NCBI RefSeq assembly: GCF_004328665.1
Contig: NZ_CP019771.1
Span: 434,001 to 498,000 of the forward strand
Length of the DNA: 64,000 nucleotides
Direction: 5' to 3'
Source of the DNA: Pseudoalteromonas sp. DL-6
GTDB lineage: Bacteria; Pseudomonadota; Gammaproteobacteria; Enterobacterales; Alteromonadaceae
Both the position numbers and the translations under genes were made by a program. The notes under the pieces are model-generated. The model had not been told where the DNA came from, did no database searches, and saw only the letters and a program-made list of their open reading frames with translations. This document shows, one piece after another, positions 590 to 14,695 of the stretch. Position 1 is the first letter of the stretch, and the number at the start of each line of letters is the position of its first letter.

Positions 590-2179
590 CTTAATTAAGT
601 CAGCTACTTTTTCGGCAATGGCTATCACACAGGCATTGGTGTTGCCGGTAATTATATGCGGCATAATTGAGGCATCAACCACACGCAAATTTTTCACGCC
701 ATGTACTTGTAGTTGGCTATTCACTACCGCCATGGGATCTTGCCCCATTTTACAAGTGCCTACAGGGTGATATTCAGTCTCGGCCGTTTGCCTAATATAC
801 TCAATAAGCTGCTCATTATTGTTAACATCTAGCGGGTAAACCATATTACCTCTAATTACATAAAATGCTTCACTTTGCATAATCTGCAGTGTTTTTTTAA
901 GCCCCGCTAACATCACGTTTAAATCATCGGGGTGGCTTAAATAATTAGGATCAATAAGTGGTGCACTCAAAGGGTTGGCATCGGCTAATCGAATCGTGCC
1001 ACGGCTTTTAGGGTGCATAATACTACAGTGAATACTATAACCATGGCCTAGGTGCAGTTTACGGCTATGGTCATCCACCAGCCCAATTACAAATTCAAGC
1101 TGTACGTCGGGTACTTTTGAATCGGAAAATAGCTTTATAAAGGCATGTGATTCTGCAAAATTACTAGTAAGCTGCCCTTCACGTTTTACAAACCAATCAA
1201 CGCATCCTTTTGCAATATTAAGCGCACCACTCGCACTTATACCAAATGTGCCTTTACTGTATTTAGCTTTATACAATGGTACAACGGTTAAGTGATCGTG
1301 AAGGTTCTCTCCTACACCAGAAAGCTCGTTTACTATTTCAATATTATGCTGCTTTAGTTGCTCTTTAGGGCCAACCCCCGATAGCATTAAAATTTGCGGA
1401 GAGTTAATTGCGCCTGCACTTAAAACCACCTCTTTTTTTGCATGCAATACAACGGCCTTATTGTTTATAGAAACAGAGACTCCGGTTGCGGTTTTATCGC
1501 AAAAAAGCACTTTATTAACGTGTACTTTGCTAAGCACAGTTAGGTTTTTTCGGTTTAAATGGGGGGTTATATACGCTTTTGCTGCGCTACAACGCTCCCC
1601 TTGATGTTGAGTCACTTGCGATAACCTTGCTCCCACTTGCTGCCCTGCGTTTATATCGGCATTGTGCGGTACACCTTGTTGTTCGCAGGCGTTTAAAAAC
1701 AGCTGATTTACTGGGCTTGGCTGGCTTAAATCCTGCACATGCAAAGGACCATCAACCCCGTGTACATCACTTTCAGTAAAGGTTTTATTATTTTCAGCTT
1801 TAATAAAATAAGGCAATAAACTCTCATAGTCCCAGCCCTCATTGCCCAGTGCAGCCCAACTATTATAATCGTGCTTATTACCTCGAATATAAACCATGGC
1901 ATTAATGGAACTTGAACCGCCAAGCACTTTGCCACGAGGCATAAATCCGCAGCGGTTATTAAGCTCTTTTTGAGGTACCGTATTGTAATGCCAGCTATTA
2001 ATGCCATAAGGCACACTAGCAGCAACCCCTGCAGGCATTTGAACCATTGCACCTTTATCACTGCCGCCCGCTTCAATTAAGCACACACTCACATTTTTAT
2101 TTTCAGATAATCGCGATGCGATAACGCAGCCTGCACTGCCTGCGCCAACAACAATGTAATCAAATGTAGTGATATGCAT
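581..2179 (-). CDS. GMC-family FAD oxidoreductase (choline-dehydrogenase-like)
   Basis: This is a glucose-methanol-choline oxidoreductase of 532 residues, a normal family length. The N-terminal FAD-binding GAGSAG sits at residues 12-17 and is followed by LIEAGG. The GMC signature RGKVLGGSSSINAM lies near residue 80. The C-terminal YHPVGTCKMG places the active-site His at about 471, and Asn515 in GNTNA is its usual partner. A longer frame starts at 2218, but the ATG at 2179 has GGAG just upstream and begins directly at the FAD fold, so I prefer it. No signal peptide is visible, which suggests a cytoplasmic alcohol or choline-type dehydrogenase. The exact substrate cannot be read from sequence. 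It is divergent from an AraC-type regulator 88 bp away, which probably controls it. Confidence 0.85.
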   Translation of the reverse strand: MHITTFDYIVVGAGSAGCVIASRLSENKNVSVCLIEAGGSDKGAMVQMPAGVAASVPYGINSWHYNTVPQKELNNRCGFMPRGKVLGGSSSINAMVYIRGNKHDYNSWAALGNEGWDYESLLPYFIKAENNKTFTESDVHGVDGPLHVQDLSQPSPVNQLFLNACEQQGVPHNADINAGQQVGARLSQVTQHQGERCSAAKAYITPHLNRKNLTVLSKVHVNKVLFCDKTATGVSVSINNKAVVLHAKKEVVLSAGAINSPQILMLSGVGPKEQLKQHNIEIVNELSGVGENLHDHLTVVPLYKAKYSKGTFGISASGALNIAKGCVDWFVKREGQLTSNFAESHAFIKLFSDSKVPDVQLEFVIGLVDDHSRKLHLGHGYSIHCSIMHPKSRGTIRLADANPLSAPLIDPNYLSHPDDLNVMLAGLKKTLQIMQSEAFYVIRGNMVYPLDVNNNEQLIEYIRQTAETEYHPVGTCKMGQDPMAVVNSQLQVHGVKNLRVVDASIMPHIITGNTNACVIAIAEKVADLIKLA

Positions 2180-2267
2180 ACTTATTCTCCAATTAAAAAA
2201 CCAGTTTGCATGGAACATCGAATAAAAACTTGTTATTTTTAGACATCATCACGCAAAAGTATATTTT

Positions 2268-3269
2268 ATGAGCCGCTTAATTAGAGCCACCTCTTTACAA
2301 GGAATAGACCATTTAATTGCAGAACTTGGGGGAGATTTCGCTGCCATAATGCAGCAGTGCGCCATTAATGTGGACTTTAATAAACTAGAGCAAGAGACCC
2401 TTACTTACCGCGCGTATGCACAGCTATTAGAGCATTGCGCGAATACACTAAACTGTCCAAATTTTGGGTTAAAACTAGCAAGTCTGCAAAGCTTTGATAT
2501 TTTGGGCCATATTGCAATAGCCGCTCAAACAGGCACTAATTTAGCCGAGGCGCTAGATTGGGTGATAAAATATTTACACTTGCATACGCCAGCGCTTAAT
2601 TTAACCACTCATCCACTTGATGATAATAAACACGTGTTTTTATCATTCGCTATAAATCTCAGGCCATTACCAGCAATAAACCAGGTAATAGAGCTCACCA
2701 TTGCATTGGCCATAGCTACCTTAAAAAATATGAGTAATGGCCGCTGTAAGCCACAAAGTGTATTTTTACCTCATACCCTAGGCGCAAATAAGCAGACCTA
2801 CCACCCGCATTTTGGGTGTAAGGTTATTACTCACAGAAATAGCGCCGGTGTTTTAATTGCCAAACAAGACTTAGATTTAACACTTAACATAACTAAGCAA
2901 CATAAAACCCAAGCAGCACTTAACTTTTTAGCTGAAAATAATGCTTATAGCCAATCTTTACCCACTCAGGTAAGCGCGCTTATTCGCATTATGCTGCCGA
3001 TATTTCAAAGCGCTAATAATACTATTGCCGCTGCGCTTAATATTCACCCTCGCACCTTGCACCGAGAACTTAAAAAACACGATACCAGTTTTGTAAAGCT
3101 CAAAGACGCCACTCGCCGCGCATTATGTGAGCACTATTTATTACAAAACCAATTGTCGGTGACTCAAATTTCAGAGCTTTTAGGTTATCAGGAGCAAGCT
3201 ACGTTATGTACTAGCATTAAACGTTGGTTTAATTGCTCTGCCCGCGCATTTAGAGCCAAACATTGTTAA
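2268..3269 (+). CDS. AraC-family regulator with Arabinose_bd-type N-terminal domain
   Basis: The protein has 333 residues with the OruR/ArgR-like AraC layout. An N-terminal ligand-sensing domain spans about residues 15-210, including the FGLKLA and LGHIAIAAQT stretches typical of this subgroup. A C-terminal AraC HTH pair follows: the first helix-turn-helix around AAALNIHPRTLHREL, the second around ISELLGYQEQATLCTSIKRWF. It is divergent from the GMC dehydrogenase and starts 88 bp from it, so that operon is the likely target. The Gfo/Idh/MocA gene follows 35 bp downstream on the same strand and may be co-transcribed. The second HTH has LCTSIKRW where many family members have F-x-R-A-F-K-R-W, a mild deviation. 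Ligand unknown. Confidence 0.8.
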   Translation: MSRLIRATSLQGIDHLIAELGGDFAAIMQQCAINVDFNKLEQETLTYRAYAQLLEHCANTLNCPNFGLKLASLQSFDILGHIAIAAQTGTNLAEALDWVIKYLHLHTPALNLTTHPLDDNKHVFLSFAINLRPLPAINQVIELTIALAIATLKNMSNGRCKPQSVFLPHTLGANKQTYHPHFGCKVITHRNSAGVLIAKQDLDLTLNITKQHKTQAALNFLAENNAYSQSLPTQVSALIRIMLPIFQSANNTIAAALNIHPRTLHRELKKHDTSFVKLKDATRRALCEHYLLQNQLSVTQISELLGYQEQATLCTSIKRWFNCSARAFRAKHC

Positions 3270-3304
3270 ACTGCGCCCTTGTTTAAAAACAGCAAAGGCT
3301 ATTC

Positions 3305-4300
3305 ATGAATTTTGTAATTGTAGGTACTAATTTTATTAGCGACACGTTATTGGCAGCGGCTAATACTCTCAGCAATTTTAATTTATACGGTATTTGCTCT
3401 CGCCAAATAAGCAGCGGTGATCGCTTTTTAGCTAATCATCCAACAAATACCGATGCTAAAATTTTTACCTCTATTGATGCTGTGTGCCAAGATGAACAAG
3501 TAGACGTAGTTTATATAGCGGCGCCCAATAGCCTGCACAGTGCATATGCAATACAGTGTTTAAAAGCGGGCAAACACGTATTAGGCGAAAAGCCCTCAGC
3601 GGCTAATAGCAGGCAACTTGCGGCTATTTTAACTGCGGCAAAGCAGCATCAGCGCCTTTACATGGAAGCGATGATGACAACGCACTTACCTAATTTTGCG
3701 CACTTACAAGCTGCCCTAAAAAAAATAGGCACACCACGTAAGTTTATTGGTCAATTTAGTCAGTATTCATCACGTTACGACAAGTATAAAAATGGTGAGC
3801 GCCCTAATACCTTTTTACCTGAATTTGCTAATGGTGCCTTACTAGATTTGGGTATTTACCCACTTTATCTCGTTATTGCATTATGGGGAGCACCACGCTC
3901 TGTGCACGCCAGCGGCGTATTACTTGAAAGTGGTGTGGATGGTGCAGGCGATGTGCTTTTAAATTATCCCGACAGACAAGCGGTGATCAGCTATTCGAAA
4001 ATTTCACAAGGCGAAAATATCACTGAAATTCAGGGGGAATTAGGTCGAATTAGAATTGAAGCCGTGTCGCAGCTTAAAAAAGTAGAGTTTATTGCTAACA
4101 ATGGTCATAAAGAGCTTATTAGCACGGAATTTGACGAGCACTTTATGAAGTACGAACTCGAGAACTTTATCAATACCATTGAGCAAAATCAGGGGGAGTC
4201 TAGCGTTAATACTCATCAGCTTTCTGTCGATGTAATGCAAGTACTTGACACCGCACGCGCACAACTTGGTGTTGTTTACCCAGCAGATTTATCCTCTTAA
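3305..4300 (+). CDS. Gfo/Idh/MocA-family NAD(P)-dependent oxidoreductase
   Basis: This 331-residue protein has the two-domain layout of glucose-fructose oxidoreductase / myo-inositol dehydrogenase relatives. The N-terminal Rossmann strand reads MNFVIVGTNFIS, so the usual GxGxxG is degenerate. The cofactor/active-site E-K-P is present at residues 95-97 within GKHVLGEKPS. The C-terminal alpha/beta domain includes GALLDLGIYPLYL, which corresponds to the conserved D-x-G-x-Y/H segment. Expected role: oxidation or reduction of a sugar or polyol derivative in the cytoplasm. It follows the AraC regulator by 35 bp and ends just before a strong hairpin at 4317. The substrate is not predictable; the degenerate nucleotide loop may alter cofactor preference. 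Confidence 0.8.
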   Translation: MNFVIVGTNFISDTLLAAANTLSNFNLYGICSRQISSGDRFLANHPTNTDAKIFTSIDAVCQDEQVDVVYIAAPNSLHSAYAIQCLKAGKHVLGEKPSAANSRQLAAILTAAKQHQRLYMEAMMTTHLPNFAHLQAALKKIGTPRKFIGQFSQYSSRYDKYKNGERPNTFLPEFANGALLDLGIYPLYLVIALWGAPRSVHASGVLLESGVDGAGDVLLNYPDRQAVISYSKISQGENITEIQGELGRIRIEAVSQLKKVEFIANNGHKELISTEFDEHFMKYELENFINTIEQNQGESSVNTHQLSVDVMQVLDTARAQLGVVYPADLSS

Positions 4301-4316
4301 TAAAACAAAAACTATC

Positions 4317-4353
4317 GGCTAAGCGATAAGCGTATTTTATCGCTTGGCCTTTG
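4317..4353 (+). terminator. Rho-independent terminator after the Gfo/Idh gene
   Basis: A 13-bp stem pairs 4317-4329 with 4337-4349, with one G-T wobble and a short loop. It is followed by a short T run. It lies 17 bp after the oxidoreductase stop. Confidence 0.6.
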
Positions 4354-4477
4354 AGCACCCTTTACTAAACACTGCTATTTTGAATTAAGCTTAAAAAGAT
4401 CACAAAATTTGACTTACCTCTAAGATCAAAAGCAGGTAACATGCCGCCAAAATTCATCGCAATCTTTAAGGACATCC

Positions 4478-5344
4478 ATGCAAAAATCAACCAAAGAGCT
4501 ATTACTGGCTATTTTATGCATATTGCTAGCAATGATGACGATTCAGTCAGGCGCGTCACTGGCTAAACAGCTTTTTCCTATTGTTGGGCCTGAGGGCACA
4601 ACCGCCTTACGTTTGGGATTTTCGGCCGCTATTTTGTGTTTGATTTTTAAACCGTGGAAACACTTCCCCGTTGCTAGCCAACGCTTACCCATATTAATTT
4701 ATGGCTTAAGTTTAGGCGGCATGAATATTCTATTTTATTACGCGATAGAACGTATCCCATTGGGTATTGGGGTTGCGCTTGAGTTTACCGGCCCATTAGC
4801 TGTTGCGTTGTTTTCTTCTCGCAGAAAACGTGACTTATTTTGGGTAGCCTGTGCGGTAGCGGGTATTTTATTACTCTTACCTGATATGAAAGGCCAAGAT
4901 AGCCTTGATCCAGTCGGTGTAGTGCTCGCACTTGCGGCGGGTGCCTGTTGGGCTGGTTATATTTTATTTGGTAAAAAAACAGGCAGCCAAAGCTCTGGTG
5001 GCGCAACGGTTGCGATGGGCATGACCATTTCAGCCATCGTGCTTGTGCCTTATGGTGGTATTTCACAAAGCGCCGCATTTACTTGGGATATTATTCCATT
5101 AGGCATTGCTATCGCCGTACTTTCGAGCGCCCTACCTTATACTTTAGAAATGATCACGCTGCGTAATATGTCGCCGCAAGGGTTTAGCATTATGATGAGT
5201 CTTGAACCTGCTATTGCAGCACTAGCCGGACTCATTATTTTAGGAGAACTGCTCAGTATTTGGCAGTGGCTGGCTATTTTGCTGGTAATTATAGCCTCGG
5301 TAGGCAGTTCCATGTCTAATGGTAAAAAGCAGCCCGCGACTTAG
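4478..5344 (+). CDS. rhtA: RhtA-like threonine/homoserine exporter (EamA/DMT family)
   Basis: A 288-residue, very hydrophobic protein with about ten membrane segments arranged as two EamA repeats. It matches what I remember of E. coli RhtA closely at several points: MTIQSGASLAKQLFP near the start, GLSLGGMNILFYYAIE, VALEFTGPLAVALFSSRR and ALPYTLEMITL. RhtA exports threonine, homoserine and some other amino acids across the inner membrane. The ATG at 4478 has AAGGA about 8 bases upstream. The gene stands alone, between the terminator at 4317 and a 350-bp gap before the TBDR. Family assignment is firm; the specific substrates are carried over from E. coli. Confidence 0.85.
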   Translation: MQKSTKELLLAILCILLAMMTIQSGASLAKQLFPIVGPEGTTALRLGFSAAILCLIFKPWKHFPVASQRLPILIYGLSLGGMNILFYYAIERIPLGIGVALEFTGPLAVALFSSRRKRDLFWVACAVAGILLLLPDMKGQDSLDPVGVVLALAAGACWAGYILFGKKTGSQSSGGATVAMGMTISAIVLVPYGGISQSAAFTWDIIPLGIAIAVLSSALPYTLEMITLRNMSPQGFSIMMSLEPAIAALAGLIILGELLSIWQWLAILLVIIASVGSSMSNGKKQPAT

Positions 5345-5696
5345 GGTCTGTTGAACTTTTTTAATTGCGTCATGAGCTATCATGGCGCAGTGCCACTCTC
5401 TGCATTTTACAGCTCTCTCTTATTGCGTTTAAGCCTACGCCTCACCTAACTTTGAATTATAACGTCTTTATATAACTAGCTATTGTACTTATAACAATAA
5501 GCATTAACTTTTTGTGTGCATTATTTATACAAACACTTTGTTTTATTTAAACTTTAAATTTAAGTAAAAACCCGCAACCTAATTTTTATTCTAAAAAAGT
5601 GAATTAAAATTCATATTTTTATTTCCATCAACAAAACTCCCTGATATTATTAGCGCTCATTTATTAACGTACTAAATCTAACTGGGATCAATTTTT
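5345..5696. other. Intergenic region upstream of the TonB-dependent receptor
   Basis: This 352-bp gap has no coding frame I can support. The first ~110 bp are relatively GC-rich and start with GGGTCTGTTGAACTTTT, which looks like a mobile-element or decayed remnant, but no partner end is visible. The last ~200 bp are very AT-rich and probably hold the receptor promoter. A small inverted repeat, TGAATT/AATTCA, lies about 90 bp before the start codon and could bind a regulator. Confidence 0.4.
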
Positions 5697-8111
5697 ATGT
5701 TTAAACCAAGCCTGTTAACCTTGGCTGTATCAAGCGCACTGAGCGGTGTATTATTTAGCGGTAATGCAACAGCACAAGAGCAAATTATTGAAAAAAATAA
5801 ATCGCTTGAAGTTATTGAGGTTACAGCAACACGCCGAAGTGGCTCTATTCAGGCTGCGCCTCTTAATATTACTGCGCTTGATGCCGATGTAATGAAAGAC
5901 CAAAATATCAGCGAATTAGCCGATGTAGCGCGTTGGGTGCCAGGTTTAACAATTACTGATCAAGGTGGTCGCTCTGGCTCACCTATTATAGTTCGTGGAT
6001 TAAATACAAATTCATCAGGCCCTTCATCAGATGGCGGCACGGTAGCCACTTACATTAACGAAATTCCAGTATCGGTAGATATGCGTCTTGTTGATGTAGA
6101 GCGTGTGGAAGTGCTTATTGGGCCACAAGGCACATTGTATGGCGCAGGCACACTTGGTGGCGCTATTCGTTACATGCTTAAAGAGCCAGAGCTTGATTTC
6201 ACCTCAGGTGAAGTATTTGGTGATGTTTTTCAAACTCAAGAAAGTGATTCAATCGGTGGTGAAGCGGGTTTTATCTTCAACTTACCATTAATTGAAGACA
6301 AACTGGCGGTTCGTACCAGCTTAAATATTTATGAAGATCCTGGGTTTATTGACTACGCTTACACCGTTCGTGAACCTGGTGTGTCGATTACCGACCCTGA
6401 TTGGACAAACCTTGATGCAGTAAACAGCAATCTTAAAAATGTAAAAGACGCCAACGGTGAAACCACCACAACTGGGCGTATTTCATTGCGTTACAAAGCA
6501 AATGAATCATTCGAAGGCACATTAAACTACTTCTACCAAAAGCAAGACACCGAAGGCCGCTCAATTGTTCATCACAATAGCCTTAACGAAAATAATGGTT
6601 TAAATGATCGCATCGGCAAATACGAGTCAGCGTACCGTTTTGAAGAGCCACGGGAAAAAGAAGATCAATTACTGAGCCTTGAACTTAAAGCCGACTTAGG
6701 TTTTGCCGAGCTGGTATCAGCTACCGGTATTTCACACTTTGAAGCCGATGGTCAACGCGACCAAACTGACCTTTTAATTCGTTTAGACTATGGCTACGAG
6801 GAGTTTCCTTCGTTTTCAGCATTTACCCGTGAGTTAGACGAAGTCGATACCTTCACTCAAGAGCTACGTTTGGTCTCACAAAGCGATAGCGACCTAAGCT
6901 GGATTGTTGGTGGTTTTTACAACAAAACCGACACTGATGCATCAAGCCGAGAGTACACACCAGGCTTTGATCAGTTCGCCGTTGATAATTTTGGTGGCGC
7001 ACAGCTAAGACCAGACTCTTTAGAGTATTTAGAAATTACTGGCAGCAAAGTAACTGAATCTGCACTTTTTGGTGAAGTGGGTTACCAAGTAACCGATAAA
7101 CTCGACATTACCATTGGCGCGCGTTTTTACGAATACGACGTAGAATCAAAAGCGGCTTTTGATTTCCCATTAGCAAATACCTTGTATGAAGGTGCTGCAC
7201 CTGATGAAGTTTCAGTTAACTTTGAAGAGAACGAAGCTGGTGACAACGGTAATCTGTTCAAATTTAATGCTAAATACCAATTCACAGATTCAGTGATGGC
7301 GTATGCAACCATTAGTGAAGGCTTTAGAATTGGTGGCTCAAATGGCTTAGTGCCTTGCCCAACCCCTCTACCTGAGGATCAACAAACAGGCTGTGGTACA
7401 CCTGATGAAATGTTGTATGAGGCAGATACTACCACCAACTATGAGCTAGGCTTCAAAAGTACCTGGATGAGAAGCCAGCTGCACTTTAATGCTGCGCTAT
7501 TCAATGTAGATTGGGACAACGCACAGATTGCCGGTGCAACAACAGTAGGCCAATTACCGTACCTGTCAAATGCAGGTAGCGCTAATGCGAAAGGGATTGA
7601 AATTGCCACGCGTGCAATTTTATCAGACTCGTTTACTGCCTATGCAACTTATGCCTATACAAAAGCAGAGCTAACCTCAGACGCTCCGTATTTATTTAAT
7701 GCCGATGGCACTGATGGCGCAAAAGATGGCGACCGTTTACCGGGCTCACCTGAGCACCAGTTCTCTATGGGGATTAACTACCAAACAGACGTTTTAAATG
7801 ATAAAACCCTTGATATTAACTACGGTTTAACTGCACAAAGTGATGTAATTTCAAAAGTAGGCCTACGTGACAACGGTGAAGCACTCCCAGGTTATAGCTT
7901 AAGTAATATTTCAGCTAAATTAACCGCCGATGCGTGGTCGACTACTTTATATGTAGATAACCTATTTAATAAATATGCGGTTACTTCTGTTCGTCGTTCA
8001 GATGCGGATATTACAACAGCCAATGGCGCAGACATACAACGTAACTATGGTTACTTTATTAATCGCCCACTTACTGTTGGCATTAAATTTAACTATAAGT
8101 TTGAAATATAA
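5697..8111 (+). CDS. TonB-dependent outer-membrane receptor
   Basis: The protein has 804 residues: a signal peptide ending near residue 26 (GNATA-QEQ), a TonB-box-like segment LEVIEVTATR, then a plug domain. Plug motifs include IIVRGLNTNSS and VEVLIGPQGTLYGAGTLGGAIRYM. A 22-strand-type barrel follows and ends in the aromatic-rich GIKFNYKFEI. It should import a ligand across the outer membrane using TonB/ExbBD energy. The gene is followed by a TPR-sulfotransferase, a pairing I associate with marine Alteromonadales, whose shared function is not known to me. The stop is followed by degenerate tandem copies of its own last codons and then a terminator. Substrate not determinable; no Fur-box-like site was evident upstream. 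Confidence 0.85.
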   Translation: MFKPSLLTLAVSSALSGVLFSGNATAQEQIIEKNKSLEVIEVTATRRSGSIQAAPLNITALDADVMKDQNISELADVARWVPGLTITDQGGRSGSPIIVRGLNTNSSGPSSDGGTVATYINEIPVSVDMRLVDVERVEVLIGPQGTLYGAGTLGGAIRYMLKEPELDFTSGEVFGDVFQTQESDSIGGEAGFIFNLPLIEDKLAVRTSLNIYEDPGFIDYAYTVREPGVSITDPDWTNLDAVNSNLKNVKDANGETTTTGRISLRYKANESFEGTLNYFYQKQDTEGRSIVHHNSLNENNGLNDRIGKYESAYRFEEPREKEDQLLSLELKADLGFAELVSATGISHFEADGQRDQTDLLIRLDYGYEEFPSFSAFTRELDEVDTFTQELRLVSQSDSDLSWIVGGFYNKTDTDASSREYTPGFDQFAVDNFGGAQLRPDSLEYLEITGSKVTESALFGEVGYQVTDKLDITIGARFYEYDVESKAAFDFPLANTLYEGAAPDEVSVNFEENEAGDNGNLFKFNAKYQFTDSVMAYATISEGFRIGGSNGLVPCPTPLPEDQQTGCGTPDEMLYEADTTTNYELGFKSTWMRSQLHFNAALFNVDWDNAQIAGATTVGQLPYLSNAGSANAKGIEIATRAILSDSFTAYATYAYTKAELTSDAPYLFNADGTDGAKDGDRLPGSPEHQFSMGINYQTDVLNDKTLDINYGLTAQSDVISKVGLRDNGEALPGYSLSNISAKLTADAWSTTLYVDNLFNKYAVTSVRRSDADITTANGADIQRNYGYFINRPLTVGIKFNYKFEI

Positions 8112-8160
8112 TTAAGCGACAAGTTTGAGATGTAATTAAACGAAAAGTTTAAGTACAATC
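8097..8160 (+). repeat. 24-bp degenerate tandem repeat spanning the TBDR stop codon
   Basis: Units at 8097-8120, 8121-8144 and a partial third from 8145 all begin AAGTTT. The first two share the AAGTTTGARATRTAATTAA pattern, so the last codons plus the stop are repeated downstream. It looks like local replication slippage or terminal-codon duplication. Confidence 0.6.
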
Positions 8161-8164
8161 AAGA

Positions 8165-8190
8165 GGCTCAAATTAATTTTGAGCCTTTTT
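8165..8190 (+). terminator. Rho-independent terminator after the TBDR
   Basis: GGCTCAAA (8165-8172) pairs with TTTGAGCC (8178-8185) and is followed by TTTTT. It separates the receptor from the TPR-sulfotransferase, so the latter may use its own promoter or read-through. Confidence 0.75.
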
Positions 8191-8221
8191 ATTTGTAAGC
8201 ACATTATTTATAAGAGTATTC

Positions 8222-9811
8222 ATGCAGCCAAACTTAAAGCAACTACACCAAAGCGCTATCAACAACTTAAACCAAGGCAATATTCAGCAAGCGCATAAAG
8301 CACTGGTTGAGCTGGTTACACAAAAACCAGACTTTGCTGATGGCTACTTTTTACTCGCTATGGTTAATTTAAAGGTTGGCCAAATTTACAAAGCGATAAA
8401 GCTAATTGAAAAAGCATTAAGCTTTACTAAGTCTATTGAATATACAGCGCAACTTGCCAAGTGTTACGCCCTTACCGGCGATTTACAAAAAGCAAAAAAC
8501 ATCGCCCTCAGCGTTAAGATTGAACATATTAGTAAAGCACTTGATGCCGATACATTAGGCGTCGCGCTCACCCAAGCGGGTTTACATCAACAAGCAGCTG
8601 ATTACTTTATATGCGCATTAAGTTTAGCTGAGGCGAGTAATACTCGTCAGCCGCAGTTTTATTATAACTATGGGGTGTGTGCTAAATTTTTAGGCCAGTT
8701 TGATAAAGCACAGCAAGCGTTTGAAAATGCCATTGCACTGAACCCGCTTCATCATCAAAGTCATTTTGCCTTAGCCGATTTAACTAAAGTCACCGAACAT
8801 AATAACCACATAGCGCGATTAAAAAATGTATTCGAACAGGTCAATCATCCCGACGCTAAACTGCATATAGGTCATGCGCTCGCAAAAGAATATCAAGACT
8901 TAGGAGAGTTTTCAGCAGCCTTTGCCGCGTTACAACATGGTAAAGCAGCAAAACTCGCTAATAAGGCGTTTGATAACCAAGCGTCTGAGGCTTTATTTGC
9001 ACATATTAAACAGCTCAGTGATAAGTACAAAAACCAACAAACAGCTGGCAACCAAAGCAGTGAGCCAATTTTTGTATTAGGCATGCCGCGCTCTGGCACC
9101 ACATTAGTTGAGCGCATTTTATCAAGCCACAGCGACGTACAATCAGCAGGCGAACTGCAAGACTTTGGCCTAAGTGTAAAAAAACTCAGCCAAACACCCA
9201 CGCCTCAAGTACTCGATATAGACACTTTAAGCCAAGCTTACCAGCTTGATTTTGCAAAACTTGGCAGCACTTACCTTGAAGCAACGCGTGTTGTAACCGG
9301 CAGCCATAAACACTTTATTGATAAACTACCGTTTAACTTTTTTTATATCGATTTAATTACCAAAGCCCTGCCAAACGCCAAAATAATTTGTCTACTTCGC
9401 GACCCCATGGACACCTGTATTGGTAACTATCGCCAGCTATTTACTATTAACAACCCGTATTATGCTTACTCCTTAGACTTACTCGACACAGCTAAATTTT
9501 ACAGCCGCTTTTATAAACTGATGCAGCACTTCAGCACCCTGCACAGCAATATTAAACTAGTAAAATACGAAGAACTCATCGCCGCACCAGAGCAAAAGAT
9601 AAAAGAGTTAGTGAGCTATTGCGACTTAGACTGGCAACCACAGTGCCTTGATTTTCATTTAAACACCGCACCGGTTTCAACCGCTAGCAAAATGCAAGTG
9701 CGCCAACCGCTTAACAACAAAGCCATAGGCCGCTGGAAGAATTTTAAGCCCCATACAGATGAAGCGCAGACTCATTTAGTTAATGAAGGAGTTATAGGTT
9801 TAATTAAATAA
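8222..9811 (+). CDS. Tetratricopeptide-repeat sulfotransferase
   Basis: A 529-residue two-part protein. Residues 1 to about 210 are TPR-like helices with the usual A/G/Y/P spacing, for example GYFLLAMVNLKVGQIYKAI and YYNYGVCAKFLGQFDKAQQ. From about residue 280 there is a PAPS-dependent sulfotransferase domain. It opens with the 5'-phosphosulfate loop PIFVLGMPRSGTT (P-R-S-G-T-T at 289-294), and later CLLRDPMDTCIGNYRQ supplies the 3'-phosphate-binding R and S/T-type region. Expected reaction: transfer of sulfate from PAPS to an acceptor (glycan, lipid or protein). No signal peptide is visible. It sits 110 bp after the TBDR on the same strand, so a link to receptor ligand or surface modification is possible but inferred. 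Confidence 0.85.
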   Translation: MQPNLKQLHQSAINNLNQGNIQQAHKALVELVTQKPDFADGYFLLAMVNLKVGQIYKAIKLIEKALSFTKSIEYTAQLAKCYALTGDLQKAKNIALSVKIEHISKALDADTLGVALTQAGLHQQAADYFICALSLAEASNTRQPQFYYNYGVCAKFLGQFDKAQQAFENAIALNPLHHQSHFALADLTKVTEHNNHIARLKNVFEQVNHPDAKLHIGHALAKEYQDLGEFSAAFAALQHGKAAKLANKAFDNQASEALFAHIKQLSDKYKNQQTAGNQSSEPIFVLGMPRSGTTLVERILSSHSDVQSAGELQDFGLSVKKLSQTPTPQVLDIDTLSQAYQLDFAKLGSTYLEATRVVTGSHKHFIDKLPFNFFYIDLITKALPNAKIICLLRDPMDTCIGNYRQLFTINNPYYAYSLDLLDTAKFYSRFYKLMQHFSTLHSNIKLVKYEELIAAPEQKIKELVSYCDLDWQPQCLDFHLNTAPVSTASKMQVRQPLNNKAIGRWKNFKPHTDEAQTHLVNEGVIGLIK

Positions 9812-10180
9812 CAACAATTGTTACGTGGACGGATAGTTCAGTGTGATTAATTTGAAAGTTACCGGATGGATTCACGAACTCTGATCAAGCGGGTTGATAT
9901 AATAATTAACTATGCCACTACATGGGAACTATTCATACAATGGGCTTTAGTTTATAAAGGGAAGGTTTTAATGCCCTAATTAGGCCACGTTAATAAAATG
10001 CGCTGCCCTAAGTCGTCCCTGCATTACTAAGCATATTTATTGCCTGATATTAAACCGAATTAAGCGCGTTAAATCAACACACTAATTTCGACTATAAGTT
10101 AAGTTGAATATGAGCGTCTCAATTAACATAAGCGTTTTGTATTATCGATTGTCTGCAAAGTGCGGTCATTGGTAAACTTT

Positions 10181-10206
10181 GATGTATGAAGTCAAGATTT
10201 GACCTC
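10181..10206 (+). repeat. Short dispersed repeat, copy 1
   Basis: ATGTATGAAGTCAAGATTTG followed by ACCTC. It shares the core TGAAGTCAAGATTTG with copy 2 at 10300-10326. An inverted copy on the other side of the cassette (13231-13260) has one base different in that core. See findings. Confidence 0.65.
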
Positions 10207-10299
10207 TTTTGTTTAGCGAGAGCCAATTACGCTGAATGAACGATTTTCGCTTTTTTACGGAGTTCGGTTGAGTGCTATTTGTAGACGATCAGGTGTTGT

Positions 10300-10326
10300 A
10301 ATGTCTGAAGTCAAGATTTGCCCCCT
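10300..10326 (+). repeat. Short dispersed repeat, copy 2
   Basis: ATGTCTGAAGTCAAGATTTG followed by CCCCCTC. It lies 14 bp from an 18-bp near-palindrome and about 85 bp from the end of the MBL-fold gene. Confidence 0.65.
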
Positions 10327-10339
10327 CTAGCCTAACGAT

Positions 10340-10357
10340 ACTGTCAAGTTTGACAGT
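10340..10357. repeat. 18-bp near-perfect palindrome
   Basis: ACTGTCAA (10340-10347) and TTGACAGT (10350-10357) are exact inverted arms around GT. It could be a weak hairpin downstream of the minus-strand cassette or a recombination/protein-binding site. There is no T run on the minus strand, so it is not a good terminator. Confidence 0.5.
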
Positions 10358-10411
10358 TTGTCATGGTAAGTACTTTTGAAAACAATGACAATAATGATTG
10401 ATTGTATAATT

Positions 10412-11485
10412 CTATAATTTTAATGCATCCCCATAAAGTTGGTACTTAACTTGTTGAGAGCTGTGGGTACTATGAATAAAGCCAAAAGACTCCAAAGGCA
10501 TAACATCTAGTACTTTTACATCAGGAGTTTTCTTATTAACTATTTTTGATGCTTTAGGGGATAAAACTTTTTTTGTACTGTATTTAGGTTTAGTTGCGCA
10601 TAAGACAGTTTCAGTATAAGTTTTATAGATCTTGATAGATTCTTCTCTTGGGAGTGAGCTACTTCCAAAAGTTGTAATTAATGCAATGAAATTTGAAGAT
10701 GTATAGCACTCCCAAGTTTCTTTATGAAATGCAGTCTTTGAACCATGATGAGGAACTTTAAATAAATCAATTGACCTTTTTTTAGGCGCGAGGTGTGTAT
10801 TTATTGCCGAATCCCAACCACCTCTTTTATCAAGAGTAATTTCTAAATCTGCACCTAGTAAAATGCTCTTCTTACTATTGAGGTTTTCTATATTGATTGC
10901 AATACAAAAGTGGTTTGGGAAATCTTTACTTGCGGACTGCGCTAAGGTTCTTTTATTTTCAACAGATTTTATAATTTTTTTTGTAAACATCTCAGTTGAT
11001 TTAATAGAGTCATAATCAGAAGGAGATAATGCTGAGATTATATGATTTTCATTTTTGAAAATGACTTTATCTTGGTTTAAACGAATAATAAGCCGTTCTG
11101 ATTTTTTCATCAATTTAAAAACTTTCTGAATCTCAGAAGTCATAGACTTAATATCAAAACCATTAATAATTTCTAAAGAAGAATAATAATTTAATGCTTC
11201 ATTTGTAGTTAATGCATCTGGCATATAAACCTTTGCATCTGGTGAAGCTGACTCGATTATAGAAGACATTCCTTTTATATGATCTTCATGAAAGTGAGTT
11301 ATGACGATTCTCTTCAATACAAGGCTAGGATCTAAACCAATTGATTCTAAATAACTAATTGCAGCTGGTTTTTTAGTTTTAACGTTAATAAAACTATCAA
11401 CGACCATCCAATTATCTTGCTCTAATTCAACTAAAATTGATTCTCCGTTACCACGGCCAAATACAACTACATTTATGTCTGGCAT
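10412..11485 (-). CDS. Metallo-beta-lactamase-fold hydrolase, ComEC/Rec2-type, third gene of cassette
   Basis: A 357-residue soluble MBL-fold protein. The metal motif THFHEDHIKG gives H64, H66, D68 and H69. The remaining ligands fit H192 (FPNHFC), D213 (LLGADLE) and H246/H247 (VPHHGSK), and this last motif is typical of ComEC/Rec2-like MBL domains that hydrolyse nucleic acid or phosphoesters. There is no signal peptide and no membrane segment, so it is a stand-alone domain acting in the cytoplasm. It starts 12 bp after the preceding cassette gene with GGTGA as ribosome site, so the three genes form one operon. Base composition is clearly AT-richer than in the flanking housekeeping genes. Substrate unknown; nuclease or nucleotide phosphodiesterase activity is inferred from family. 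Confidence 0.8.
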   Translation of the reverse strand: MPDINVVVFGRGNGESILVELEQDNWMVVDSFINVKTKKPAAISYLESIGLDPSLVLKRIVITHFHEDHIKGMSSIIESASPDAKVYMPDALTTNEALNYYSSLEIINGFDIKSMTSEIQKVFKLMKKSERLIIRLNQDKVIFKNENHIISALSPSDYDSIKSTEMFTKKIIKSVENKRTLAQSASKDFPNHFCIAINIENLNSKKSILLGADLEITLDKRGGWDSAINTHLAPKKRSIDLFKVPHHGSKTAFHKETWECYTSSNFIALITTFGSSSLPREESIKIYKTYTETVLCATKPKYSTKKVLSPKASKIVNKKTPDVKVLDVMPLESFGFIHSTHSSQQVKYQLYGDALKL

Positions 11486-11497
11486 TTTTCACCGCAA

Positions 11498-12124
11498 TTA
11501 AACGAAAATATTTGAATACTTTTGGAAGTTATTTTCTAATCGGCCTTTTAAGGCTCTGGGCGAAACGTAAGTCAAACGCATCCTAAAATCTGAAAAGTTT
11601 TCAGAATGAGGTACCAACTTGTTATTTAAGTTTTTGTAGGTCGTTCTAGTTCCGATCCGCCAGTAGAAACCTGCATTTGGAATTATTTTGCTTACTTCGG
11701 AATTTAAAAAATTTGAGAAAGGAACGGTTATTGTCATAACTTGCATATTTTCTTCAATATCATAAACCGATGCGCACAACTCTTTATTGACTTCATCAAC
11801 ACTGTCGATAGTACAAAAAAATTCACTCTCTAAATCTTCTACAACTTGTTGTTTATTTAATTCAAAACTTGTTTCTTCATTAGATTCATGAATATCATCA
11901 ATAGCATCTAAAGTAATGCTTCCTAATTCATATTGTAAATTAAACTTTGAAGATATTTGGGTGAGATTATTACATATATCTTTATTATATTTTTTAAATG
12001 AAATTGTTGGGCTAAGTGATTTGGATAATAGCTTTTCATTTACAGGCTTATTATCTGTAGATGAAAAAGAAGTTTTATCTAGAGGGGTATCTATAGAATC
12101 TGTACATATAGCAAGATTATTCAT
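11498..12124 (-). CDS. Unrecognised protein, second gene of the MBL cassette
   Basis: I do not recognise this 208-residue protein. The first ~75 residues are polar and Ser/Asn/Lys-rich and may be disordered. Residues ~75-125 are acidic (DDIHESNEETSFEL and similar). The C-terminal ~80 residues look folded: MTITVPFSNFLNSEV, then an aromatic PNAGFYWRIGTRTTYKN and a basic FRMRLTYVSPRALKGRL. There is no signal peptide or membrane helix. Its ATG overlaps the stop of the upstream gene (ATGA), showing translational coupling, and the MBL gene follows after 12 bp. The sequence is very AT-rich (11 G+C in the 60 bases 11941-12000). It could be an adaptor, sensor or antitoxin-like partner; that is speculation. 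Confidence 0.65.
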   Translation of the reverse strand: MNNLAICTDSIDTPLDKTSFSSTDNKPVNEKLLSKSLSPTISFKKYNKDICNNLTQISSKFNLQYELGSITLDAIDDIHESNEETSFELNKQQVVEDLESEFFCTIDSVDEVNKELCASVYDIEENMQVMTITVPFSNFLNSEVSKIIPNAGFYWRIGTRTTYKNLNNKLVPHSENFSDFRMRLTYVSPRALKGRLENNFQKYSNIFV

Positions 12125-12837
12125 GAAAAGCTCTCCACAATTCCTTTTATATTTTGAGGACCCAATTTAAATATCTCATCAAAATATTTCTCAATAGTTA
12201 TTTTTGCATTTTCCATTGAACCGCTTTTACCTAAAGGAAAGTGATAATTTAAGATACACTCGGTACAAAATTCATAATCCTTATCTTTTGTTCCTCTAAC
12301 CGGGAGGATAGAAATGTTTAACTGTGGTTGTTCTTCGACATTTTCAATTACAGGCTCGAGTGCTGATTCAATACGCATAGAAATATTTGTCATTCCTGCC
12401 CGAGAATCTTCTTTACCAAATAGATCTAACCATTGTGATTTAGGTGTTAAAGCATCACCAAAATTGTTCCATTCTTCTTGTGTTTGATGAGTAATCCAAG
12501 ATTTATAATTTATTCCCATAATGGTAGGGTTAGCGGTATCGTTATAGTCCAGTAATGAAAAAACAAAATCTCTAAATAAAGTTATTGAGCTTAAATCAGT
12601 TAAAAAAATTGAAAGTCTATTTTGTGTATTACGTGTAGGTTCTGTTCTTAAGTTACCCCAAGGAAGAGAAATCTGTAATTCAGCTGGTGATACATATTCT
12701 ACGTCAGTATTTTCTTTATCATTTTCATTAATGAGCCCCATTTGAAGTAGGTTGTCAGGCAGATGATGTAAATTGTTAAATTTTCCAATCAACACTACAG
12801 AAAAATTAGTATCTCTAACCTTGTATGAAACACTCAT
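12121..12837 (-). CDS. Unrecognised protein, first gene of the MBL cassette (possibly TIGR04255-like)
   Basis: A 238-residue soluble protein without a signal peptide. It opens with beta-strand-like SYKVRDTNFSVVLIGKFN, has a central IMGINYKSWITHQ and a MTNISMRIE strand, and ends with a helical AKITIEKYFDEIFKL. This outline recalls the sporadically distributed TIGR04255 proteins, but the match is by impression only. The start at 12837 has AAGGG about 8 bases upstream. Upstream on the minus strand, TTGACT (12908-12913) and TAATGT (12885-12890), 17 bp apart, could be a weak promoter, with an 8-bp TCTCGAGA palindrome between it and the gene. It overlaps the next gene by 4 bp. Function unknown. Confidence 0.65.
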   Translation of the reverse strand: MSVSYKVRDTNFSVVLIGKFNNLHHLPDNLLQMGLINENDKENTDVEYVSPAELQISLPWGNLRTEPTRNTQNRLSIFLTDLSSITLFRDFVFSLLDYNDTANPTIMGINYKSWITHQTQEEWNNFGDALTPKSQWLDLFGKEDSRAGMTNISMRIESALEPVIENVEEQPQLNISILPVRGTKDKDYEFCTECILNYHFPLGKSGSMENAKITIEKYFDEIFKLGPQNIKGIVESFS

Positions 12838-13343
12838 CGAACAGAACCCTTAATTTAAATTTATATAAATTCTCGAGAGACTCTACATTAAATTGAATCT
12901 ATATAATAGTCAACAAATTAGGTAGTTTCCAATTCTAAAGAATTTCAAAATTTGGAGCCGATCTTTGATTTTGATATATCCCCAACTAACTCTATTAAAT
13001 AGGATTATAGATCGTTCAGATAATTATCCATTTTTCTTTAGTTTTGTTTTTTAGTTCTCTATACATAACTTGACTCTCCTTTGCCGACAATTTATATCGA
13101 TGCACAAACTAGACATCTGAAGATTTACTTTCCCCCAAAGTGTAATCATTACGTTGTTGTGATATGAAATATTGCATTCTGCCAAAGGGCCAGTATCTGG
13201 TAAGTAACCGCGGTACTATAGTGATGAGCTGATAGGGTCAAATTTTGACTTCAGACATTAAAACTCTTAACTGACCTCTCCTCGCCCTTACTTGCCTTCT
13301 AGGTTTTGATCTAATAGTCAAAACTCAGCATGTAAATTAATGG
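12838..13343. other. AT-rich junction right of the three-gene cassette
   Basis: In 506 bp I see no gene. The left part is the AT-rich upstream region of the cassette operon. The right part contains the inverted repeat copy at 13231-13260 and then ~80 bp leading to the RIO kinase stop. There is no obvious terminator for the RIO kinase. Confidence 0.5.
13231..13260 (-). repeat. Short dispersed repeat, copy 3 (inverted)
   Basis: Read on the minus strand it gives ATGTCTGAAGTCAAAATTTG followed by ACCCTATC. It matches copies 1 and 2 closely but in opposite orientation, on the other side of the cassette. Confidence 0.65.
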
Positions 13344-14198
13344 TTATTGCTCATCGGCGTCGCGAATGCGTTCTTTACGTTCTTGCTCTTCATCAAAGGC
13401 GGCTTGAATTTCGTCAAGTACTGAGTCTACATCTGCAGCTTCGCTGTCGTCTTCAAATTCGCCACTGAGTTTTGAGTGCGGGGTTAAGTTAGCATCTGCA
13501 AACAATGCCCACATTTCTTTGGCGTATTGCGTGTGTAATAACGCCGGTGCAAATTGGCCATAATAGCGGCGCATGTTATTTACATCGCGGGTAAACATGG
13601 CTTCGGCGCTATTATTAGCAGAGGCGTTAACCGCTTGAGGTAAATCAATAATTACCGGGCCGTTACTATCTACAAGTACATTAAACTCCGATAAATCACC
13701 GTGAATAATCCCAGCGCACAGCATGAGTTTAATGTAGTGCATCATTGATGTATGTTGCTCAATGGCTTGTTGCTCAGTTAAATCAACCGCGCCAAGTTGT
13801 GGTGCAACATCGCCTTCATCATCACTTACAAGTTCCATTAACAAAACACCGTCAATGCAGCCGTAAGTTTGCGGTACGCGAACACCTGCTGAGGATAAAC
13901 GCGAGAGTGCGTCAACCTCGGCATTTTGCCAAATTTCTTCTTCTAATTGGCGGCCATAGCTTGAACGTTTACCCATAGCACGGGCTTGGCGGCCACCACG
14001 TACTTTTCGCCCTTCTTGGTACTGTGCTGCCTTTTTAAAACTGCGCTTACTGGCCTCTTTGTAAACCTTAGCGCAGCGAATCTCATCGCCACAGGCGACT
14101 ACAAACACATCGGCCTCTTTACCGCTCATTAAACGGCTGATCACTTCATCAATAAAACCATCATCAACTAATGGCTGTAAGCGTTTAGGTATTTTCAA
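13344..14198 (-). CDS. RIO-family serine protein kinase (RIO1-like)
   Basis: A 284-residue RIO kinase. The flexible Gly-poor loop SGKEADVF (25-32) precedes the ATP-binding Lys44 in CAKVYK. The catalytic loop IIHGDLSEFNVL gives D168 and N173, and the metal-binding D185 is in VIIDLPQAV. RIO kinases lack the substrate-binding activation loop of canonical kinases; bacterial members (PA4780-like) autophosphorylate on serine and have poorly known targets. The C-terminal ~45 residues are strongly acidic. The start at 14198 begins with MKIPKRLQPLVDDGFID, matching family N-termini. It stands alone, divergent from the uvrA-like gene ~500 bp away. Confidence 0.85.
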   Translation of the reverse strand: MKIPKRLQPLVDDGFIDEVISRLMSGKEADVFVVACGDEIRCAKVYKEASKRSFKKAAQYQEGRKVRGGRQARAMGKRSSYGRQLEEEIWQNAEVDALSRLSSAGVRVPQTYGCIDGVLLMELVSDDEGDVAPQLGAVDLTEQQAIEQHTSMMHYIKLMLCAGIIHGDLSEFNVLVDSNGPVIIDLPQAVNASANNSAEAMFTRDVNNMRRYYGQFAPALLHTQYAKEMWALFADANLTPHSKLSGEFEDDSEAADVDSVLDEIQAAFDEEQERKERIRDADEQ

Positions 14199-14695
14199 AC
14201 AACACCTACTAAAAATACAGGGTTGGCTTTTTGTTTTGCTATGTGGTTCAAACGAGGCATACCTTTGGGGATTGAAGAAAATTATAAATTATTAGTAAAC
14301 TTTAAAGTTACATTTAATGACTAAATTACGCAGCTAGAATAAGCGACTACACAGAAAAAGCCAACCGCCTTTTTTGCTTTTTAAGTATTATTGAGCCCAT
14401 ATTTAATTAAAACAGCATAAAAATGCTAACAAATAAAAAAAACAATAAATACATAACTAAAATTGTTAACTTATTCCAACCTAACCAAACTTCTACCTAC
14501 ATCATTTAACTCCCCGCAATACGCTTCAGTCAATTAATATTATTGTCTTTGGTTAAAGTTTATACTAGCAGTTTTTCTGTTATGTAAACGCAAAACTAGC
14601 ATATAGCTAAGCGCTCATTCAGTAAGACTGCATTATTATTAATACTTTATAGAACATTAATAAACACAGGATTATTACACAGGAGTATATATTAC
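14199..14695. other. Intergenic region between RIO kinase and uvrA2, with a gene fossil
   Basis: This 497-bp gap is mostly AT-rich. Its only recognisable content is the decayed lysE-family 3' end at 14481-14560 (separate entry). The last ~60 bp carry the uvrA2 translation signal, with AGGAG about 12 bases before the ATG at 14696. Confidence 0.6.
14481..14560 (-). pseudogene. Decayed duplicate of the 3' end of the lysE-family gene
   Basis: 14481-14560 aligns without gaps to 17342-17421, inside the intact LysE-family gene, with 66 of 80 positions identical by hand count. Shared blocks include CTAACCAAAC, TCCCCGCAAT and TTAATATTATTG. In the frame of the intact gene the copy reads TLTKDNNIN, then stop, LKRIAGS, stop, so it is non-functional. 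Weaker similarity may continue past 14560. The copy and the intact gene flank the uvrA-like gene in the same orientation, which points to an ancient duplication or insertion event. Confidence 0.75.

Follow-up and report, generated by a model that had tools for sequence, protein, structure and literature searches.

A, B and MBL, three genes in the 64-kb stretch of the Pseudoalteromonas sp. DL-6 genome analyzed here (the window), probably form a mobile anti-phage, or anti-mobile-element, system whose effector, a ComEC-type metallo-β-lactamase-fold (MBL) DNase, is under the control of A and B. We give this reading a probability of roughly 0.6. It is based on a gene set conserved in content and order, common descent of the three genes, invariant metal ligands, mobile carriage, a defence context and predicted folds. 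Because the unit travels on prophages and plasmids, often in known defence sites, it is probably an undescribed immune system. We call it a putative immune system that combines an MBL effector with a new pair of partners, because A and B are unmatched in Pfam, NCBIfam and PADLOC and none of the literature matches listed describes the set in its title or abstract opening. An earlier mention is possible.

ORF calling places the three genes on the minus strand within positions 10412–12837 (Table 1). The original prediction described a tightly linked, AT-rich unit bracketed by short repeats, and the measurements agree on each point. A and B overlap by 4 bases (ATGA), and 12 bases separate the B stop from the MBL start. 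The GC content across A, B and MBL is 0.28–0.34, as against 0.40–0.49 in most of the flanking coding stretches. A 17-base repeat core, allowing up to two mismatches, occurs three times in the window, where shuffling predicts 0.03 occurrences; two copies lie to the left of the cassette and one, inverted, to the right. A 19-base form of the repeat, at the same tolerance, occurs ten times in the 3.9-Mb, two-contig genome, and three of the ten are at the cassette. The A-B-MBL block is real and its arrangement is beyond chance. No structured RNA in the inserted block was matched in Rfam, and promoter and terminator scans gave no excess over shuffled sequence.

Table 1. Coordinates of the cassette, its motifs, the bracketing repeats and the neighbouring genes in the window.
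Feature	Position	Strand	Size	Description
Gene A	12121..12837	-	238 aa	predicted two-repeat alpha/beta saddle, perhaps TBP-like; without known family
Gene B	11498..12124	-	208 aa	predicted disordered N-terminal arm (residues ~1–90), C-terminal OB-fold and helix; without known family
OB-fold part of B, residues 94–182	11579..11845	-		blocks of mean pLDDT >90 cover nearly all of it
MBL gene	10412..11485	-	357 aa	stand-alone hydrolase of ComEC/Rec2 type with a metallo-beta-lactamase fold; predicted to be a DNase effector
MBL metal-binding motif H64-x-H66-x-D68-H69	11279..11296	-		from the alignment of 47 rows
MBL motif H246-H247-G248-S249 (ComEC-type HHGS)	10739..10750	-		from the alignment of 47 rows
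Repeat copy 1 bracketing cassette	10182..10219	+
Repeat copy 2 bracketing cassette	10301..10338	+
Inverted repeat copy, opposite side of cassette	13235..13264	-	30 nt	90% complementary to 10295–10324
Inserted accessory block	9872..13269	none		limits set by relative G020; flanks 95% identical
Left flank, TPR-sulfotransferase gene	8222..9811	+		neighbour outside the system
Right flank, RIO-type kinase gene	13344..14198	-		neighbour outside the system

Comparison with close relatives delimits the block. The RIO kinase gene was found in 23 of 60 genomes, the window's own included. Ten of the 22 relatives were compared, and four were informative; the other six keep the kinase without the second flank inside the stretch and are therefore uninformative. 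Alignment with relative G020, at 95% identity in the flanks, stops at window position 9871 and resumes at 13270; in G020 the gap is filled by 3.0 kb of unrelated cargo. In relative G048 the right flank is shared from position 13266 on (93% identity), as are, on the left, the pieces 9923–10093 (88%) and 9874–9910. Between 9923–10093 and the right flank G048 carries 5.0 kb, which includes the Lamassu genes LmuA and LmuB (PADLOC E-values 1.8e-153 and 6.5e-264). Given these shared pieces, the window-specific cargo may be as short as about 10094–13265. In two further relatives, G021 and G022, the site is nearly bare, no more than about 220 bases separating the flanks that align. The cassette repeats were not found in the compared stretches of these four relatives.

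Sampling at wider ranges gives a similarly sporadic distribution. Among 99 genomes of the genus, the window's own included, its own is the sole one with a real MBL match; one other gives a match at E 1e-3. MBL matches occur in 3 of 394 genomes of the order and, with a profile, in 6 of 398 of the phylum, each count including the window's genome. The original prediction proposed a presence/absence comparison among closely related strains, and the outcome is that the genes are not fixed here: the four informative relatives are nearly bare or differently filled at the site. A conserved chromosomal gene set is thereby ruled out. By these alignments, A-B-MBL is cargo at a variable chromosomal site.

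The same set recurs elsewhere. In single-sequence searches, A matched only itself, B matched itself and two others, and MBL matched 118 proteins including itself. The partners were located by scanning genomes, plasmids and viral contigs with MBL, reading upstream and then applying A and B profiles. Of 55 places with a close MBL relative, the window among them, 49 have A-B-MBL in the identical order; the suggested co-occurrence count thus yields 48 further places. At the remaining six (L012, L035, L051, L064, L067 and L069) the missing part lies beyond the end of the contig. Fifty complete loci reduce to the 49 places, as L031 is the same place as L027, and to 47 on removal of L043 and L063, whose MBL proteins are identical to others. 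Nineteen weak-match loci (L013–L026, L070, L071 and L073–L075) were left out as other MBL proteins; they have MBL E-values of 1e-14 to 1e-6 and neither A nor B, and the complete loci score 2e-45 or better, a line between the two groups that was set post hoc, after inspection of the table.

In all 47 non-redundant complete loci, A, B and MBL are co-directional and in one order, and A and B overlap or lie no more than 4 nt apart, with starts assigned mechanically. Mean identities across the 47 sets are 23% for A, 21% for B and 32% for MBL. The distance matrices of the three proteins correlate at Mantel r 0.88–0.89, a level reached in none of 2000 permutations. A tree of 70 MBL proteins places the 47 cassette MBLs in one group with an SH-aLRT support of 89, or 99 against 6A-MBL alone; this is a quick tree, in which the 47 were chosen for having A and B and several outside branches are long. 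As judged from these comparisons, A, B and MBL are a unit with shared descent. Its bearers range from Gammaproteobacteria to Bacteroidota and Planctomycetes and include Myxococcales, Saprospiraceae, a Scatousia MAG, Verrucomicrobiales, Bacteroides, Lichenibacterium, Scalindua, Pantoea and Adhaeribacter.

Searches begun from the partners lead back to the same loci. When viral contigs were scanned with A or with B as the starting point, either scan returned 16 contigs, all previously found via MBL. The profiles used held 11 sequences each from the enterobacterial branch only, because the full A and B alignments are too diverse. A plasmid search from A returned the same two plasmids as the MBL search. 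An order-wide A profile matched 4 of 295 genomes: the full set is present in three, and the fourth (G136) has a distant orphan at a contig end. This A-like protein (E 6.8e-10) sits on a 3.2-kb contig without an MBL gene and was not counted as a member. Its relatives are in 20 plasmid records, all with cyanobacterial names.

The metal-ligand motifs of ComEC/Rec2-type MBLs are, in outline, HxHxDH, D and HHGS, and the cassette MBL has all of them. Residues H64, D68, H69, D213, H246, H247 and G248 are present in 47 of 47 alignment rows, H66 in 46 and S249 in 45; the numbering H66/D68, earlier offered for control mutants, is correct within the HxHxDH motif. The best of ten PDB sequence matches is a competence (ComEC) nuclease chain (PDB 9ic4). 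The ComEC match spans 201 residues on 128 model positions in the window MBL and 284 on 207 in the MBL of locus L028. The median spacing is 86 residues from HxHxDH to P155 and 32 more to N191. Among PADLOC and NCBIfam models of immune MBLs, matches were obtained to LmuA (3e-13), RTasMBL (1.3e-10), 6A-MBL (3.5e-7) and Avs1a (1.1e-5). MBL is thus predicted, from its sequence, to be a DNase effector.

A and B were said in the original prediction to fit no recognised defence family, and the proposed profile searches bear this out. For neither the 238-residue nor the 208-residue protein did Pfam, NCBIfam (June 2026) or PADLOC 2.0 (2023) return a significant match. In PADLOC, no model was matched by A or B of the window at E ≤ 1, nor by four A and three B relatives at E ≤ 0.1. 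Two Pfam lines, HolB_lid for one A relative (E 0.053) and DUF7222 for B (E 0.54), are below cut-off and at chance level. The structure model of A is a two-repeat α/β saddle with a pLDDT of 94. A TBP-like fold consists of two β-α-β(4)-α repeats, and the modelled fold of A is perhaps of this kind. The model of B has a disordered arm of about 90 residues followed by an OB-fold (94–182) and a helix. OB-folds are five-stranded barrels of order β-β-β-α-β-β, the arrangement seen in the modelled C-terminal part of B.

A vague resemblance of A to TIGR04255 had also been suggested. It was not confirmed: there is no NCBIfam match to this family, which has a cut-off of 30 bits, at E 1 for A or at 0.1 for four relatives. 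Profile-profile alignment with hhalign gives a probability of 6.1% (P 0.006), although it is colinear across 107 columns; the B and MBL profiles give 0.2 and 0.1 against the same family. On the TIGR04255 side, 2 of 14 translations were dropped for stops, being in the wrong frame at a shortened locus.

How might A and B act on MBL? MBL nucleases serve a number of bacterial immune systems as a common effector, and in the work of Tuck et al. 2025 (PMC12799240) proteases activate them. In Hachiman, AVAST and canu, as shown there, the nuclease stays inert until loops over its active site are cut by a partner protease, and two gating insertions cover that site. By analogy, A, or A together with B, might be an unrecognised protease that cuts blocking loops in MBL, which would make the cassette a gated pro-nuclease like Hachiman-MBL, AVAST-1 and canu. 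The cassette MBL falls within the broad group that contains these effectors; the location of its long segments (86 and 32 residues) is comparable to that of the two gating insertions described in that paper; and canu likewise has three genes with the nuclease last. Against this, Pfam, NCBIfam and PADLOC gave no significant protease-family match for A or B, and no protease is prominent among the fold matches listed. We therefore regard proteolytic gating by A or B as unlikely.

The settings in which the cassette is found point to phage defence. In two P2-like prophages (L036 and L054) it is flanked by genes for a portal protein and a replication nickase, as annotated with PHROGs, and the same flanks were recognised by eye in L037 and L038. 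An anti-phage hotspot between gpA and gpQ, the site of P2 old and tin, is described in the main text of Rousset et al. 2022 (PMC9122126). In lambdoid prophages the cassette lies between antiterminator Q and holin (L039) or by an endolysin beside a holin (L040); in genome G226 it follows a Zot-family (PF05707) filamentous-phage gene; and phage-type integrases are near it in L052, L055 and L112. It is also carried by a conjugative Pantoea plasmid and by an Adhaeribacter plasmid typed as non-mobilizable. Searches of 50,697 phage records gave no match, and a megablast of the L036 MBL against 20,395 E. coli records, with a reach of only about 85% identity, gave none either.

Known defence genes adjoin several copies. 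In L068, AbiD, a type I specificity subunit and a type I restriction subunit are just upstream, neighbours that were first picked by eye. A neighbour scan covered 50 proteins judged likely genes at 11 non-IMG/VR loci, with L003, L004, L007, L009, L110, L114 and the window excluded. Matches at 1e-20 beside the cassette were to type IIG and type II restriction-modification, type I restriction, HmaC/DUF499 and SngB-SngC. Restriction, HmaC or SngB-SngC genes are present in at least 4 of the 11 loci (L005, L006, L011 and L030), the type II match and a second type IIG match having been assigned to no locus; up to 7 of the 11 have nothing convincing among their neighbours. A PycC match among the neighbours is probably to a general cyclase domain. 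The gene adjoining L111, which has no Pfam match at 1e-5, may be RAYT-like. To summarize, the cassette is associated with known defence loci through the P2 hotspot, L068, the neighbour scan and Lamassu at the same site in G048. This context supports the earlier idea of a small accessory, possibly anti-phage system, the function itself being a prediction.

Two other functions deserve mention in this light. First, A and B might neutralise a toxic MBL in a toxin-antitoxin-like, or addiction, module that retains prophages and plasmids, with phage defence secondary or absent. Carriage on both kinds of element, the effector's place at the end of the operon and the tight coupling of the genes would suit such a module. 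Repeated placement in known defence loci, including the chromosomal site that holds Lamassu in a relative, argues the other way, and we consider an addiction role improbable, more so than proteolytic gating. Second, that the cassette is a DNA-processing accessory of mobile elements, serving recombination, replication or uptake, is very improbable: ComEC-type MBLs and OB-folds do also belong to DNA uptake and metabolism, and the cassette adjoins holin, portal or Zot-family genes, but the same gene set is also chromosomal beside restriction systems, and its patchy distribution, in 3 of 394 genomes of the order, is unlike that of a housekeeping function.

Returning to the anti-phage reading, we propose the following scheme, in which the nuclease activity on DNA, the sensing step, the controlling role of A and B and the fate of the cell are inferred. 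The saddle-like A and B, with its OB-fold and flexible arm, would be produced first through translational coupling, and MBL would be a ComEC-type, metal-dependent DNase. Because the effector is encoded last and its coupled partners first, MBL would, most simply, be held by A and B until they release or activate it. They would sense an infection product, most likely an unusual nucleic-acid state, for example exposed single-stranded or replicating phage DNA bound through the OB-fold of B. On meeting such infection-made nucleic acid, A and B would release or activate the otherwise quiet MBL. Active MBL would then degrade DNA and stop the phage, probably at the cell's expense.

A narrower proposal is that MBL is controlled without proteolysis, by a TBP-like saddle protein and an OB-fold protein, each of an undescribed family, which together would sense a phage-made nucleic-acid state, with activation by binding alone. 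We put this forward tentatively, as a possibility with the odds somewhat against it. If true, control by binding alone would define a new immune-system class, an old three-gene unit spread over several phyla, with P2-like, lambdoid and filamentous phages as well as plasmids for carriers. More generally, a widespread set without a recognisable protease would show a second control mode for the MBL effector, and A and B would add two sensor candidates. The cassette also accounts for unannotated cargo in prophage and plasmid defence slots, and its three co-directional genes are a ready profile for finding further loci.

The nearest known systems are those with a separate ComEC-type MBL effector gene in an operon, namely Avs1a of AVAST type 1, HamM of MBL-Hachiman, MBL-Lamassu and MBL-DRT. 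The cassette resembles these systems, as described in PMC12799240, also in the extra segments between metal motifs and in a mobile, defence-island setting. It differs in that no trypsin-like protease was detected, A and B match no partner model, and the nuclease gene is last, whereas in those systems it is typically upstream. Membership of AVAST type 1 was rejected, the Avs1a model NF041809 scoring 24.3 bits against a cut-off of 420 bits. Membership of the protease-gated MBLs was rejected as well: no trypsin-like or caspase-family gene is adjacent, A and B are unmatched, and the flanking genes encode a RIO kinase and a TPR-sulfotransferase. The canu caspase-nuclease system, from the same paper, shares the three-gene layout with the MBL nuclease last; the cassette departs from it in lacking a caspase match and in the predicted folds of its partners, a saddle-like α/β fold for A and an OB-fold for B.

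Like the cassette MBL, 6A-MBL is the MBL enzyme of an anti-phage system. Membership was rejected, as the score to NCBIfam NF058524 is 29.7 bits against a cut-off of 220 bits. At 6A-MBL loci (6 of 299 genomes) the next downstream gene encodes a protein of 495–790 aa, and neither A nor B is within the 11-kb stretches of these six genomes. The window cassette, in contrast, has no such large partner gene, and the two MBLs are in separate groups of the tree. With old-tin and other P2 hotspot systems the cassette shares the gpA-gpQ slot, as that slot is described in PMC9122126. The proteins are different, and the terms MBL and metallo-beta-lactamase are absent from the main text of that paper. Finally, the cassette MBL resembles the ComEC/Rec2 nuclease domain in its HxHxDH, D and HHGS motifs and in its top PDB sequence match; it is set apart by being a stand-alone protein, free of the membrane part and coupled instead to A and B.

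In a close relative, G048, a Lamassu LmuA-LmuB pair is found in the intergenic site that matches that of the window cassette, and thus the gap between the RIO-type kinase and sulfotransferase genes looks like a small defence slot. The same site in G020 holds about 3 kb of different small unannotated genes, the first ORF of which (167 aa) has no match in PADLOC (1e-3) or Pfam (1e-5). The window cassette is bracketed by a 19-base repeat, TGTCTGAAGTCAARATTTG, of which there are 10 copies across the genome (up to 2 mismatches allowed). The remaining seven copies may bracket other cargo likewise.

Features at the cassette site and in loci from other genomes
Stretch	Coordinates	Feature
Window	10182-10338, 13235-13264	19-base repeat, both sides of cassette; 7 further places in genome
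L101 (G048)	4071-6781	LmuA-LmuB pair
L100 (G020)	2103-5117	Different cargo
L110 (G226)	9891-14570	Zot-family gene, A-B-MBL
L068 (viral-collection contig)	3061-11098	AbiD, HsdS, HsdR genes, A-B-MBL
L111 (G223)	6499-7518	ORF upstream of A-B-MBL
L118 (G136, contig end)	1453-2169	A-like gene

Elsewhere, the A-B-MBL set has other neighbours. In G226, a Zot-family filamentous-phage gene shortly precedes it, which suggests an inovirus as the carrier. On the viral-collection contig, genes for AbiD and the type I proteins HsdS and HsdR lie immediately upstream of the cassette. The ORF immediately upstream in G223, without a Pfam match at 1e-5, is one that we take to resemble a REP-associated transposase. 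Two relatives of the MBL protein (P0011 and P0012; 55–56% identity) carry the source label Vibrio parahaemolyticus.

A distant A-like protein (E 6.8e-10) is encoded in G136, its gene being followed by a 306-aa ORF of no known identity. Relatives of this A-like protein occur on plasmids, in 20 records that all bear cyanobacterial names, and other systems may therefore also make use of the A fold.
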